Shown here: one piece after another, positions 44,422 through 64,000 of the stretch
Position numbering within the stretch: the stretch's first letter is position 1
How the letters are laid out: the number at the start of each line of letters is the position of its first letter
From: Parietichytrium sp. I65-24A
Taxonomy: Eukaryota; Sar; Bigyra; Thraustochytrida; Thraustochytriidae
DNA length: 64,000 bases
Direction of reading: 5' to 3'
NCBI GenBank assembly: GCA_012862575.1
Contig: BLSF01000091.1
Coordinates: forward strand, 54,536-118,535
Notes under the pieces: model-generated
The model's input: the letters and a program-made list of their open reading frames with translations, nothing else
Told to the model about the DNA's origin: nothing
Databases searched by the model: none
Translations under genes and position numbers: made by a program

Positions 44422-46932
44422 TCATTTGACCTTACTCAGGCGCTGCTGCTGGCGGCGCTTGCGAGCAAGCAAGTAGATCAAGCAAGTTAGGGCCAGTGAG
44501 CCCAGAGCAAGCGTCTGCACACGAACAGTGGAATACCTTATAATGATATTGTCCTCAATGCGGACGCGGCGCTCTGGAGCTTTGTGCAAAATATTATGGT
44601 ACTTTTCCCTCAAGTTTGAGACGGATTCACTCTTTGATTTATCTGCGGTTTGCCTCTGGTCATCCCCCAAAAGTTGATTCGCAAAACTTTCCAGCTTCTC
44701 ATCGTCAAGATCGTCATAAGCAAGTGTATCAAGCTGCTCTTCCTCCTCTATTGAGACACTCTCTTTCTGGTTCAATACCTCATCCGCCTGAAGCACTGCG
44801 ACGGGTGTTTTACGAGCATCGTCATCAAAATTCAACACTTCTTTTTCCCACTTTGCGTCGTTGCCGTCGTCCTTGACATGCAAACCAGAGCGCGAAGGAA
44901 TTGCGGTCTTGACACGCTCCGAAAATACCTCTCCTCCGTCGCCGTTGTCGTCGTCTGCTCCACTCGAGAAATCACCGCCCTCGACGGATCGAGCAGTGTC
45001 TGGCTCCACAAAGTCGTGAAGAAATTTGCTATCCTTTAGTGAAGCGTGCAGTTCGCCTTCGTCAAAGTCGTCCATGTCGGTGTCCCGGTCGCTAGCGTCA
45101 GACCCATCTGCGCGCCGAGGGGCCTCCGCCAGCCTGTGGTCTTTGCGAAACACATCTTCTTCTTCTTCACTACCATCATCCTCGCTAGACAGATCTAAGG
45201 AGTCCGAGTCCTCCAAGTTCAAGTTCTCGTCGGAGTCCTCCACCCGAGGATGCTCTTTTGTCACTTCAAAGTCAAAAGATTCCTCCTCTTGGTCGAATTG
45301 AGGGTCTGCGTCGCTGGTAGCCCCCACTAAAGTGGAGTCAGATTGGTCTTCATCCACTTCAAAAGTTGAGCTGTCTTCATCATCGGATGATATAGAGCGC
45401 AGAGAACTTGGGGATGAAACTGGCGAAGTCGCTACCTGACCCTCATACTCATCGTTGAAATCGTCCGAGAATGCGTCAAACGCTTTTTTGTTGTCCGTCG
45501 CAGTTGAGTCATCCTCGCTCTCAAAAGACTCTGCAAAGTTACTCAAGAGATCGTCAAGGCTCATCTCATGAGGCTTTAGATCTTTCACTTTCTTCTCGTA
45601 CTTTTCTTCCTTGGCCGCAGGGGCACCTGGTACCACCAATATTTCTCCATGAGATGGCGGCGACAGATTCTGTGCCGTACGTTCAGAACCAGCACCATCA
45701 TTGACGATGCTACGGCCATTACCACTTTCCCTGTTGCCTTCGTCAACATCGCCTTCGGATTGACCGTCGCCGTCGTCTTCATCGGAATCGTCACCAGTCT
45801 CTTGCTGGGGAGCAGACCCCGGACCGGTCAGAACCACTTCAGCCATTTTCCAAAACCCAGCCTCTAGCTCTTTCGAGATGGGGATGATTTCGTGCTCTGG
45901 AACCTCAAAGATGTACTTGAGGAGCTTGGTGCGATTGCCTCTTGTCTCAACCATAAACACATTCTGCACCTTTGCTTCCGCATAGATCCAATCCACTCCG
46001 ATTCCCGTGTTTGAGTCGGAGAACTCTGATTCTCTTGGGCGATGCTTGTACTTGTAGTTGTTCACCTCGCGCATGGCTTTTGAAATGGCACCGCAATTCG
46101 CCAGATTGCGGGTCTGCACGTCTTCCGGCTCCCCGCTGTAGTAAAATGGTGGCAGAATAGCTCCAGAGCAGCAGTGGACATCCATGAATCCATTGATCGA
46201 CTGGCCGCGCTTGTGCTTCAAAAGCCAGTCGCGCACTGCTTTGATCTCTGGCTCTGAGAACGGCCTTTTCCCCTGGTAAACTTCAGACGTGGCACGGTCC
46301 GCGCCAAAGCCCCATGACTTGCCCTTGACACCCCAGTTCCGATTCAAATCGATGCCGTGCACTCCGCGCTCGCACTTGGAGCACAGGTTTCGGCGGTTCT
46401 TACGCCACTCTTTGGCTTGTTCGTTCTTCTCTGCTGGCGTGCGGGTGTACTCATACCCGTCTGGGTTCAGTATTGGGAGCATATGAACCTGAGTTTCGGA
46501 CAAGAGCTTGATCACCTTGGGGTCGTTCGCCTCCACTGCAGCTAGCAACCTCGATGCCAAATACAAAATTGAATGTGAGGTGATCCACTCCCTCCCGTGC
46601 ATTGTGCCCATGAGCATGAGCTGGTACTTTGGAGACGGTGTGCCGATAGTCATCATTGTGAGACTTCGGTGCTCCGCAGACTTGCCTATTGAGGACAGCT
46701 TGATCATTTTTGTTTTCTTATACTTTTTGCCAAGGGCAGTCATGAACGCCTCCATTTCTTTGTAAGTGTTCCATTTTTCGAAGAAACTCGAATCATCAGC
46801 AGCTACCAGTGCCTTTGCCGCGGAACTCTGACTCGACCCGCCGCGTTTCAAAGCAGCACAAACGTGCGCAAGAAGCGCCAGAGCCGCAAGTGTTGCGCGC
46901 AGCAGCATTTTGCCGTTCATCCTTCTCGCCAT
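44422..46932 (-). CDS. M14-family zinc carboxypeptidase, membrane-anchored, catalytically complete
   Basis: An 836-residue protein. A signal peptide (about 1-25) leads to a M14 peptidase domain (about 55-370) with all active residues: His112 and Glu115 in MHGREW, NPDGYEYTR, Asn197-Arg198 in DLNRNW, His253 in DVHCCSGAILPP and the catalytic Glu329 in FMVETRGNR. Thus it should bind zinc and remove C-terminal residues from peptides, on the lumenal or outer side. A very acidic Ser/Asp/Glu-rich stalk of about 400 residues follows, then a C-terminal transmembrane helix (ALGSLALTCLIYLLA) and a basic tail (RKRRQQQRLSKVK). The enzyme class is sure; substrates are unknown. The start is the first of ATGs at 46932, 46920 and 46908. 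Confidence 0.9.
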   Translation of the reverse strand: MARRMNGKMLLRATLAALALLAHVCAALKRGGSSQSSAAKALVAADDSSFFEKWNTYKEMEAFMTALGKKYKKTKMIKLSSIGKSAEHRSLTMMTIGTPSPKYQLMLMGTMHGREWITSHSILYLASRLLAAVEANDPKVIKLLSETQVHMLPILNPDGYEYTRTPAEKNEQAKEWRKNRRNLCSKCERGVHGIDLNRNWGVKGKSWGFGADRATSEVYQGKRPFSEPEIKAVRDWLLKHKRGQSINGFMDVHCCSGAILPPFYYSGEPEDVQTRNLANCGAISKAMREVNNYKYKHRPRESEFSDSNTGIGVDWIYAEAKVQNVFMVETRGNRTKLLKYIFEVPEHEIIPISKELEAGFWKMAEVVLTGPGSAPQQETGDDSDEDDGDGQSEGDVDEGNRESGNGRSIVNDGAGSERTAQNLSPPSHGEILVVPGAPAAKEEKYEKKVKDLKPHEMSLDDLLSNFAESFESEDDSTATDNKKAFDAFSDDFNDEYEGQVATSPVSSPSSLRSISSDDEDSSTFEVDEDQSDSTLVGATSDADPQFDQEEESFDFEVTKEHPRVEDSDENLNLEDSDSLDLSSEDDGSEEEEDVFRKDHRLAEAPRRADGSDASDRDTDMDDFDEGELHASLKDSKFLHDFVEPDTARSVEGGDFSSGADDDNGDGGEVFSERVKTAIPSRSGLHVKDDGNDAKWEKEVLNFDDDARKTPVAVLQADEVLNQKESVSIEEEEQLDTLAYDDLDDEKLESFANQLLGDDQRQTADKSKSESVSNLREKYHNILHKAPERRVRIEDNIIIRYSTVRVQTLALGSLALTCLIYLLARKRRQQQRLSKVK

Positions 46933-48607: not shown

Positions 48608-51169
48608 ATGCTGAAGAAGACGCACAATGAGAAGCGCTGGAGAGCGCTGCAGAATCTGCACTCGGAAGCTTATAAGAGGAAGACGAGGAGGTTCCAGCTG
48701 ATTCGATGCGCGTTCGTTGCGGTGATGGTAGGCATGGTGATGATGGCCGTGGCTGTCTTTAGGAGACTGAGCGCATATCAGGAGACCAACGTGATCATTA
48801 ATTACCACCGCACGCAGAAACATGAGCCGCTCCCAGGTTCTGGCACTCCTGCACAGAGCAACACTGTGTATAGTGGTGTGTCGCTAGACAGCATCGGAAA
48901 TCTGGTTCTCAACGAACCAATGCACAAGCTTTGTGACGCCAAGCTCTTCTTTGTGGAGCAGGCACCCAGCGTCGACCGCCTCACTCCAGTGCTTCAAGGT
49001 GGCAAAACGCTGCACTACAAGTCTGGCTCAACTTTTCAGGAGTGCTGCGACTCTTGCTCTAGCCAGGAGTGCGACGGCTTTCGGTTCGAGGGTCAGAGCT
49101 GCACACTCTTGAGTTTTCCTCATGTGGAGGTTGAGGAGGACCTTGAAGAGGAAGAGGAGGAAGGCGACAATGCCGGAGGCGATAGTGGCGATGCAAACGA
49201 GCGTTTCGAGCCTGTACCCGAAACTAAAGTTGACAGGGAATTCGGGAGCGCACAAAGTGTGGCTACCCCTCGCCCGCCTGTGCAGAGCTCGCTCCGGAAT
49301 TCTGGAGAGGAGAACGAGGAAGAAGAGGAAATTTTGGAAGAGGACTTTGGAGTTGTTGCGGACGTTGAAAAATCTGGACCTTCTTCATCTCAAGACAGCG
49401 AAAGTGAGGACGATTCTGAACGAGATGGCCTCATTCTAGATTTTGATGAGGAAGAGGAGCCCGTTGAGGACTTTAGCGTATCTGAAGGGCAACAGCATGG
49501 GTCTGAAAGCTCGCAGGAAAGCGGCGAGCTGGACCCCGCACTTGACGAATTTGAAGCGGAGGTAGAAGACGAGCCCAACTCCTCGAGCGAGGGCCACTTT
49601 GGTCAGAGTGCCGGCGGCAACACAGACCAAGAAGATGACTTTAACTCCATGTTCGGGGCAACCGATAGCGGGGAATCAGAGAATGAGCACCCGAGCGACG
49701 AGGAATTTGGCAACCTTGGTCTGGGAGTTGTGAACCAGCTTCCGGAAGAGTTGCAGACTATTGACCACTCGGATGATGGTGAGGAGCTTCGCGACTTTCT
49801 TGGCGTATCAGATACCGAGATTTTGCCGAAAGAAAGCGATCAGGAGCTTATGAACATGCTGATGGATCAACTCAACTCCCGAATGAACCCAAAGAAAGAG
49901 GAGGAAGAGGAGGAGCTCGTCAAGGTTCCGAAGAAGAGCACTGAGGAGGAGCAAATAGACCACGCGATGAACGTTGAGCTCGGTCAGAGCAGAGTCAACA
50001 CGATCATCCCTCTTGGCGATTACCAACGATTAACCGCGCGCGACCAGTTCTACTCCAAGCACAAGAATCTGGTCTTGCGCTACCGCACCAATCGCGAATT
50101 GACTGCAGTTGCCTCCGAAATGGCTACCTTCTTTCCGGACGTAGAATACGTCACCTTTGGAAGAAGCGGCGATCGCAAAAAGCCGCAGCCTTTGAAGGTC
50201 TTGCGGGTTGGAAACGGCCGAAGAGGAAAGCATGTATTTGTTGTCGCGACCCTGCGTGGCTGCGAGTGGACCTCTGCTCTTGCGACTTTGCACACTGCGC
50301 TCGCACTTAAAGGCCGCGGATCTACTACGAAGAACTTGCTCGACTCTGTGCAGTTTCACTTCATCCCAATTGTCAATCCAGATGGGTTCGACTACAGTCA
50401 TCACAAGAGCCCGGCGAACGCGCGCGCATGGTGCAAAAATAGGCGTGTTGCAGTCCCGGGATACCACGGCGTGGATTTGGAGCACAATTGGGGGCTCGAT
50501 GGAGTGTCATGGGGCTTCGGGAAACGAGATGCCGCAGGTGCCAAGCTGGACGTTTTCCAGGGGCCTGCCAACTTTTCTGAGCCAGAAACGCGCTCGCTCA
50601 GGGACTACATGACTCATTATGCAACTGGCCGAGGTCGCGTTGCGCTCCTTTACGTAAAGTGCTGCGGTGCATCCATCACTCCCCCGCAAGTCTACCGCAC
50701 TGATATTCCCAATCCGGTCAATGTGAACCAAATAGCTGCTATGATGGCCAAACACGTGGAGCAAACAGACGGGTCTCGATACACAATCGTCCAGCGCGAA
50801 AGCACGTTTCATGCCAAGAACCAGGGCCAGATGATTGATTGGGCACACAATGAAGCTATGATCGACCATGCATACACAATCGAGGTGAAGGGACTCGGAT
50901 TGTCTACTCGTGCGGACCATGCTAAAATTTCTGTGGAGCCGTTTCAGACACTGCTTCGAGAGCTTGAAACTGCTACTGTCTTTCTCGCTCTCCGCTTGCT
51001 CCAAGACCCCATTGAGGGCCAGGCTGTGAACAAGCCGTACACCTACTCCTCTGCCGCACTCGGTTCCTCGGATGCTTCCTCCGCAGCTGCAGCTTCATCA
51101 ACTACCTCTTCTTCGAGCTCGGCGTCGTCCCCCAAAAAGACCGATAAGAAGAAGAAAAAGAAGACGTAA
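48608..51169 (+). CDS. M14-family carboxypeptidase paralogue, probably inactive
   Basis: An 853-residue type II membrane protein. Its transmembrane helix is at about residues 31-51. The next part has six closely spaced Cys (STFQECCDSCSSQECDGFRFEGQSCTLL, about 141-168), PAN/apple-like. A long acidic stretch (about 170-460) is followed by a M14 fold (about 480-800). Key residues have changed: the first zinc His is Arg550 (TLRGCEWTS, Glu553 kept), the third ligand His is Lys684 (LYVKCCGASITPP), and Asn-Arg of the substrate site is Glu625-His626 (DLEHNW). The catalytic Glu759 (TIEVKG) remains. Two of three zinc ligands are lost, so it is most likely a pseudoenzyme. A Ser-rich, Lys-rich end (KKTDKKKKKKT) closes it. 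Confidence 0.87.
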   Translation: MLKKTHNEKRWRALQNLHSEAYKRKTRRFQLIRCAFVAVMVGMVMMAVAVFRRLSAYQETNVIINYHRTQKHEPLPGSGTPAQSNTVYSGVSLDSIGNLVLNEPMHKLCDAKLFFVEQAPSVDRLTPVLQGGKTLHYKSGSTFQECCDSCSSQECDGFRFEGQSCTLLSFPHVEVEEDLEEEEEEGDNAGGDSGDANERFEPVPETKVDREFGSAQSVATPRPPVQSSLRNSGEENEEEEEILEEDFGVVADVEKSGPSSSQDSESEDDSERDGLILDFDEEEEPVEDFSVSEGQQHGSESSQESGELDPALDEFEAEVEDEPNSSSEGHFGQSAGGNTDQEDDFNSMFGATDSGESENEHPSDEEFGNLGLGVVNQLPEELQTIDHSDDGEELRDFLGVSDTEILPKESDQELMNMLMDQLNSRMNPKKEEEEEELVKVPKKSTEEEQIDHAMNVELGQSRVNTIIPLGDYQRLTARDQFYSKHKNLVLRYRTNRELTAVASEMATFFPDVEYVTFGRSGDRKKPQPLKVLRVGNGRRGKHVFVVATLRGCEWTSALATLHTALALKGRGSTTKNLLDSVQFHFIPIVNPDGFDYSHHKSPANARAWCKNRRVAVPGYHGVDLEHNWGLDGVSWGFGKRDAAGAKLDVFQGPANFSEPETRSLRDYMTHYATGRGRVALLYVKCCGASITPPQVYRTDIPNPVNVNQIAAMMAKHVEQTDGSRYTIVQRESTFHAKNQGQMIDWAHNEAMIDHAYTIEVKGLGLSTRADHAKISVEPFQTLLRELETATVFLALRLLQDPIEGQAVNKPYTYSSAALGSSDASSAAAASSTTSSSSSASSPKKTDKKKKKKT

Positions 51170-62863: not shown

Positions 62864-64000
62864 ATGGGGATGTATGACGACAAGGAAACTTGTGGCGTCA
62901 AGTCGAGGTTCTGGCTTGTGAGATCGTTGGGCGAAGGATTAAACGCTCTGGACCGAGAGGAGGCCGTGTGGTAAGCGAGGTGACGTCCGCCGAGTGAAAG
63001 AGCTGCCCAAGTTGATTATCTGACGGTGCCTTTTTTTCACGCACAAGGTTCGAAGATTGTTGCGTGGGGCAAGATGGAGCGATCAAGGTGGCCGTGGCTT
63101 TTAATGGAAATAAAACGCTTCAACAGTTAGGGTACGTCGTGCATGCGATGAGCGTTGCTGGGGCAACTGAGCTATTACGTGTGACCTTGACACCGGTTTG
63201 GTGAAAATGTTTCATACCTTGCTAAACGTTTTCGGACTTGTTGGCTGACGACTCCATGTATTTTTGAAATGAAATAGTCTTCAATGGAATGAAATTGGTG
63301 AGGAAGGAGCATCAGCAATCGGTCGCGCGTTGGAGAAAAACACTGCGCTGACCTCGTTGAAGTACGTGTGACTTTGACACCGGTTTGGTGAGATGAATCT
63401 CTTGCTGAACTTTCTCTCGGACTTGGCGGCTGACGGCTTCATGTCTTTTGTAATGAANGTATTGAAATAGTCTTCGATTTAATGAAATTGGCAATGAAGG
63501 AGCATCAGCGATCGGTCGCGCATTGGAGCAAAACACTGCGCTGACTACATTGGAGTATGTGTGACTTTGACACCGGTTTGGTGAAAGAGATTTGTCTCTT
63601 ACTGAGCTATCTCGGACTTGGTGGCTGACGACTTCATGTTTTTTTGTAATGAAATAGTCTTCGAGAAAATAAAATTGGCGATGAAGGAGCATCAGTGATC
63701 GGTCGCGCGTTGGAGAAGAACACTGCGCTGACTACATTGATGTACGTGTGATGTTGACACCGGTTTGGTGAAAACGCTGAATACCTTTGCCAAACGTTCT
63801 CGGACTTGGTGGCTGACGATATCATGTCATTTTGTAATGAAATAGTCTTCGAGATTATAAAATTGGCTTACGACTTCATGTCTTTTTGTAATGAAATAGT
63901 GTTGGAGGCAATTACTTTCGTATGAAGGAGCATCAGCGATCGGTCGCGCGTTGGAGAAGAACACTGTGCTGACTACATTGGAGTACGTGTGACTTTGACA
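62864..64000 (+). CDS. Leucine-rich-repeat protein, multi-exon, 3' end outside the window
   Basis: An RNase-inhibitor-type LRR gene. Exon 1 is 62864-62970 (MGMYDDKETCGVKSRFW..., ATG after an in-frame stop), with a GTAAGC donor. Exons 2-5 are 63048-63131, 63278-63361, 63471-63554 and 63658-63741, each exactly 84 bases and each a 28-residue repeat of the LxLxxNxIGxEGAxAIGRALExNTxLTxL kind, all split in phase 2. A sixth exon begins near 63900-63908 and its donor is at 63983; the window ends in the next intron. Introns are GTACGT...AATAG and nearly identical between units. An unresolved base N is at 63459, inside an intron. LRRs of this kind bind proteins; no catalytic domain is seen in the visible part. 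Confidence 0.85.
63048..63982 (+). repeat. Tandem exon-plus-intron LRR units
   Basis: Units of about 187-242 bases repeat five times. Each has one 84-base exon and an intron of 103-146 bases, with conserved intron blocks TTGACACCGGTTTGGTGA and CGGACTTGGTGGCTGACGAC (the latter with a possible branch point CTGAC) before TGAAATAG. Exon and intron duplicate together. The last unit has a truncated extra exon start at 63846-63867 joined to a second intron tail. Confidence 0.9.

Follow-up and report, generated by a model that had tools for sequence, protein, structure and literature searches.

Introduction

Animal NLRs such as NOD1/2, CIITA and the NLR-C proteins of fish carry 28-residue leucine-rich repeats (LRRs) of the ribonuclease inhibitor (RI) type, often encoded by about one 84-bp exon each, and use them in cytosolic sensing. 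Units of the same size (84 bp, 28 residues) make up the zinc-finger arrays of PRDM9, in which the scaffold is homogenised and a few contact codons are hypervariable. The LRR-ROCO genes of brown algae are assembled from 72-nt phase-2 exons and 23-residue LRRs (Zambounis 2012; Teng 2024, PMC11378527). They display selection at four concave sites as well as alternative splicing, with LRR-ROC-COR reported as the sole ROCO architecture next to LRR-only reservoir genes (PMC11378527).

Here, we describe a gene located at the very end of a 64,000-nt stretch of contig C91 of the thraustochytrid Parietichytrium sp. I65-24A (the window), along with the exon family to which it belongs. The best explanation, which we consider probable, is a multigene cytosolic LRR family with interchangeable one-LRR exons, recombining units, selected codons and several outputs, comprising intracellular receptors for non-self or pathogens and their LRR-only relatives. 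An immune function is suggested by the architecture of the genes together with their variability.

Anatomy of the window gene

The 5' part of one gene fills the last 1.1 kb of the window, starting with the ATG at 62864 and being cut at 64000. As the end of the window coincides with the end of contig C91 (118,535 bp), the remainder of the gene is absent from the assembly as one piece. Comparison of this contig end with C81, C155, C45 and C169 revealed no exact end overlap. The predicted features are the following:

62864..62970, + strand: exon 1, 107 nt, with the ATG and an N-terminal helix MGMYDDKETCGVKSRFWLVRSLGEGLNALDREEAVW, recognised by a homologous first exon elsewhere
62971..63047, + strand: intron 1, GT..AG, phase 2
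63048..63131, + strand: exon 2, 84 nt, a divergent N-terminal capping LRR, found upstream of most arrays at 50-85% nucleotide identity
63132..63277, + strand: intron 2, a hybrid of its own 5' part and, after it, an array-type intron block at 63187-63204
63278..63361, + strand: LRR exon, 84 nt, AG/GT, phase 2
63362..63470, + strand: array intron, with the block TTGACACCGGTTTGGTGA at 63374 and one N at about 63459
63471..63554, + strand: LRR exon, 84 nt, AG/GT, phase 2
63555..63657, + strand: array intron, with the block at 63567
63658..63741, + strand: LRR exon, 84 nt, AG/GT, phase 2
63742..63899, + strand: intron that retains 22 nt from the beginning of an LRR exon (63846-63867), recognised by its sequence, by repeat D3 with 54-nt spacing and by an HMM fragment
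63900..63982, + strand: LRR exon, 83 nt, with a 1-nt deletion, recognised by frame and length
63983..64000, + strand: start of the next intron, followed by the end of C91

An earlier note on this DNA had described four consecutive 84-nt phase-2 exons of one LRR each. All four are present with AG/GT borders (63048-63131, 63278-63361, 63471-63554 and 63658-63741), but the first is the divergent cap, leaving three array units. Each of these three intact exons encodes one 28-residue LRR, and the predicted spliced product of the gene matches both LRR_6 (PF13516, 1.6e-22) and ribonuclease inhibitor in the PDB (2e-24), in line with RI-type repeats. Exon 1 is without a hydrophobic stretch, as judged by eye, and homologues with the same ATG and 50-85% nucleotide identity precede about 30 other arrays. 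Many arrays likewise have the array-type block in this position of the hybrid intron 2.

The 22-nt remnant is best read as the scar of a deletion within the array. The 83-nt exon would introduce a frameshift and a stop if spliced in, or else reflects an assembly error near the contig end, and the gene may be damaged or misassembled at its end. Elsewhere in the window, two adjoining open reading frames resemble M14 carboxypeptidases (44422-46932, - strand; 48608-51169, + strand). The latter reads TLRGCEW where the former has TMHGREW and, judged by eye, may have lost a zinc-binding His.

Extent of the family in the genome

The earlier note had proposed searching the genome for more loci with the intron block. 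In the assembly of 42.5 Mb (GC ~51%), the block returned 231 matches with up to two mismatches, compared to 0 for the reversed control. A 35-nt exon core gave 381 matches with up to three mismatches, again against 0 for its reversed control, and a search with an exon profile (HMM) gave 476 matches, fragments included. The matches to block and core lie far above chance. The 45 loci that were fetched contain 432 units, with AG kept in 408, GT in 401 and the exact AG-84-GT arrangement in 379. We infer from the sequence that these units are spliced together. Arrays reach up to ~20 units, and most of them are preceded by the same exons 1 and 2. While the exons stay at 84 nt, the introns have a median length of 102 nt and display no bias toward multiples of three.

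The introns themselves are shared between units, as noted earlier; rather than blocks of 18-20 bases, it is the whole intron that is copied. In the fetched loci, 220 of 253 intron blocks lie directly after an LRR exon, most of the others occupy hybrid intron 2 or imperfect units within these arrays, and antisense blocks are missing altogether, indicating that the unit consists of exon plus intron and is not a free intron. High conservation of the intron between loci and its 231 genome-wide blocks would also be expected if a mobile, introner-like intron had invaded an LRR gene and the exon pattern were secondary. However, the fixed place of the blocks, the lack of antisense copies and the joint travel of exon and intron make such an origin scarcely credible.

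Arrays contain or border the ends of contigs C5, C45, C59, C81, C91, C155 and C169. With seven contigs breaking there, it is probably the family itself that limits assembly, and it is probably larger than the counts suggest. On C59, an array adjoins an intronless LRR_6 gene with the same repeat style (L055:3-1637; 545 aa shown, in a frame of 623 aa), possibly an uninterrupted relative of the exon arrays. Relatives of the family were sought in viral contigs, and none were found there. An open frame of 5583 aa in the same assembly (C66:8562-22499) encodes a modular type I polyketide synthase; it has four ketosynthase-like matches and does not reach the PfaA cut-off. The PfaA search of the assembly returned no PUFA synthase above cut-off.

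Variable positions within the unit

Entropy per exon position, computed on 356 distinct exons, offers a more detailed view of the unit. It amounts to 1.5-2.0 bits at codons 2, 3, 5 and 26 and is raised at codon 28; elsewhere in the exon, third positions included, it mostly stays below 0.9 bits. Conservation extends over the exon framework, the synonymous sites and the intron, whereas five codons are near-saturated. In the window exon at 63278-63361, the variable codons occupy exon positions 5-10, 14-16, 77-79 and 83-84.

These codons are the x positions of the motif LTxLx|LxxNxI, which form the concave beta-strand in the LRR fold. By analogy with that fold, the five variable codons are predicted to build the ligand-facing concave strand. 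As the intron falls in the middle of this strand, each predicted ligand-facing strand is formed by two exons. The idea of a variable recognition surface, raised in the earlier note, agrees well with this pattern, the variable codons being those of the predicted surface.

Codon 2 alone accommodates 19 amino acids through 53 codons, and the positions spared between the variable codons are exactly L, N, I and L. A single stop was found in 370 x 27 codons (~10,000, from 370 units), and the 1480 variable codons contain 0 stops versus ~69 expected for random codons. This near-absence of stops indicates that the frames are under selection.

Unit turnover and selection

Comparison of the eight units of locus L033 with one another gives differences of 3.6% in the scaffold, 11% in the intron and 53% at the variable sites. 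For the three units of the window, the corresponding values are 9%, 15% and 48%. Units identical at 60 neutral sites can still differ at 9-10 of 14 variable bases. Between well-matched units of tandem paralogues, 16 of 196 variable sites have changed compared to 28 of 812 neutral sites (OR 2.5, p=0.006). A looser pairing, which may include non-orthologous units, yielded OR 2.3-4.0, and the test was repeated on the well-matched pairs. The roughly 2.5-fold excess in recent paralogues hints that much of the variable-codon diversity may be old and not freshly made. If the variable codons were subject to targeted hypermutation or were rearranged somatically, much as in adaptive immunity, units could match at all 60 neutral sites and diverge at most variable bases, but such a process is highly improbable given the excess of only ~2.5-fold in recent duplicates and tandem paralogues and the several variable codons that remain identical in them.

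Several features point at movement of sequence between units. Linkage of common variants falls to near background beyond 10 nt, and identical variable 12-mers are shared between loci 28 times, versus 0.65 expected from column shuffles. Recent duplications of one and two units are visible, and the tandem paralogues on C40 contain 14 and 16 units, pointing at gain or loss of whole units. A candidate finding that distances within and between loci are equal, obtained on pooled data, was weakened by per-locus distances, with 27 of 36 loci being tighter inside than between loci. Local homogenisation also occurs, and exchange across the genome accounts for the pattern only in part.

The approximately equal pooled distances, along with the many units close to consensus, could be explained by a recent star-like burst of one LRR unit followed by ordinary divergence, with relaxed variable codons and no continuing exchange or recognition role. 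Relaxation, however, cannot give variable sites that outpace introns and synonymous sites. The lack of stops in the variable codons, the precisely spared L, N, I and L, the unlinked common variants and the recent unit duplications also stand against such a burst, which we regard as unlikely. The simplest reading is that unequal exchange and conversion homogenise everything except the codons that selection keeps diverse. Unequal exchange had been put forward in the earlier note as the engine of diversity; it does appear to add and remove whole units in frame, but it cannot explain the codon diversity alone because diversifying selection at the five codons is also needed.

Proteins encoded downstream of the arrays

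Three kinds of end follow the arrays: ROC-COR-TIR, a coiled coil with a kinase, and a short cap exon. On C4, C12, C35, C75, C81 and C107, arrays are immediately followed by ROC and COR, the defining ROCO domains, and in all six cases (6/6) that region or frame continues with a TIR, TIR_2 exceeding the Pfam cut-off in the ROCO-class reading frame. In the C12 reading frame, ROC, COR and TIR are all above Pfam cut-offs, and it matches LRRK2 and Roco structures in the PDB. Its TIR aligns weakly to SARM1-type NADases, with a Glu aligning with the catalytic Glu. Two further reading frames, at C10:397227-399746 and C73:47661-49859, match ROC, COR and TIR as well; no neighbouring array of 84-nt exons was noted for either.

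The kinase class was found downstream of ten arrays (C2, C8, C29, C30, C45, C73, C88 (three) and C140). Besides a protein kinase (PF00069, 1e-24), its reading frame of ~1000 aa has a coiled-coil-like linker, and its end is rich in cysteine. By eye, this end appears RING/IBR-like without a Pfam match, for example in L048/L076 (C30:519883-522639) and relatives. A 41% identical copy of the kinase frame is located at C13:621402, with no array seen nearby. In the third class, the arrays finish with a short cap exon.

The scaffold distance of LRR exons between kinase and ROCO classes is 0.131, compared to 0.141 and 0.110 within classes. Since exons of different classes are about as similar as those within one class, one exon pool serves unrelated outputs. 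The likeness to brown-algal ROCO and NB-ARC genes pointed out in the earlier note holds for the ROCO domains that follow several arrays; a search for NB-ARC, the one NLR domain sought, gave 6 weak matches in the assembly, with 0 at an array.

The long signalling frames also bear on the quality of the assembly. Seven contigs breaking at arrays, N gaps within arrays, and the frameshifted unit and exon remnant of the window would all be expected if the arrays were an assembly artefact or mainly pseudogenes, with collapsed or chimeric repeats and mis-joins producing the diversity. Some units may indeed be assembly products. As an account of the whole family, this is very unlikely: mis-joins cannot confine variation to five codons while hundreds of units keep AG-84-GT and open frames, and intact signalling frames of ~800-1090 aa follow the arrays in order.

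Proposed mechanism and implications

In a recombining receptor family under selection, a target-binding horseshoe would be put together from one-LRR exons that can replace one another. Each of these 84-nt phase-2 exons would contribute a fixed scaffold with variable codons at both ends, so that every predicted ligand-facing beta-strand (LTxLx|LxxNxI) would be complete only after two exons splice together. Near-identical introns and exon cores would permit gene conversion and unequal exchange, both inside a locus and from one locus to another, and these processes would add, remove and mix whole repeats in frame while homogenising the scaffold. Selection would then maintain diversity at the five concave codons, and the arrays would be joined to ROC-COR-TIR, to a coiled coil and protein kinase, or to neither. 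More tentatively, one shared, recombining LRR exon pool might furnish the sensing part of two or more unrelated architectures (LRR-ROC-COR-TIR and LRR-coiled coil-kinase), with the binding strand built at the exon junction and with exon exchange, possibly also alternative splicing or somatic recombination, yielding surfaces combinatorially.

If true, this would represent a second, architecturally different diversification of exon-per-LRR receptors outside the brown-algal design, with one recognition module common to TIR and kinase outputs. With its hundreds of units, the family offers natural replicates in which gene conversion can be told apart from diversifying selection. Should arrays vary between strains or cells, they would also bear on rapidly renewed, immune-like repertoires in protists.

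Comparison with known systems

Our search of the open-access literature, with subscription journals outside its scope, retrieved no report of this family of 84-nt LRR exons. The present genes differ from animal NLRs in having no NB-ARC match at the arrays, in their outputs (ROC-COR-TIR or kinase) and in the N-terminal position of the LRRs. In PRDM9, the units lie within one exon and bind DNA, whereas every unit of the present arrays forms an exon of its own in an LRR protein. LRRK2 and bacterial Roco proteins share the order LRR, ROC, COR with the present ROCO class, which in contrast has a C-terminal TIR instead of a kinase and draws its LRRs from spliced repeat exons.

The brown-algal LRR-ROCO genes come closest in organisation. 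In both systems, each phase-2 exon encodes a single LRR, the exons are interchangeable and arranged in tandem, and concave residues are under selection; both also include genes with ROC-COR along with LRR-only genes. In contrast to the algal 72-nt exons, 23-residue repeats and exclusive LRR-ROC-COR architecture, the thraustochytrid arrays consist of 84-nt exons encoding 28-residue RI-type LRRs, the variable strand is split by an intron, ROC-COR is extended by a TIR, and the same exon pool also serves a second class, with a kinase. The scale of the present family sets it apart as well. Judged from the predicted exons and domains, the novelty is a variant of the exon-per-LRR ROCO design distinct from that of brown algae, built on a principle and an intron phase that are already known.
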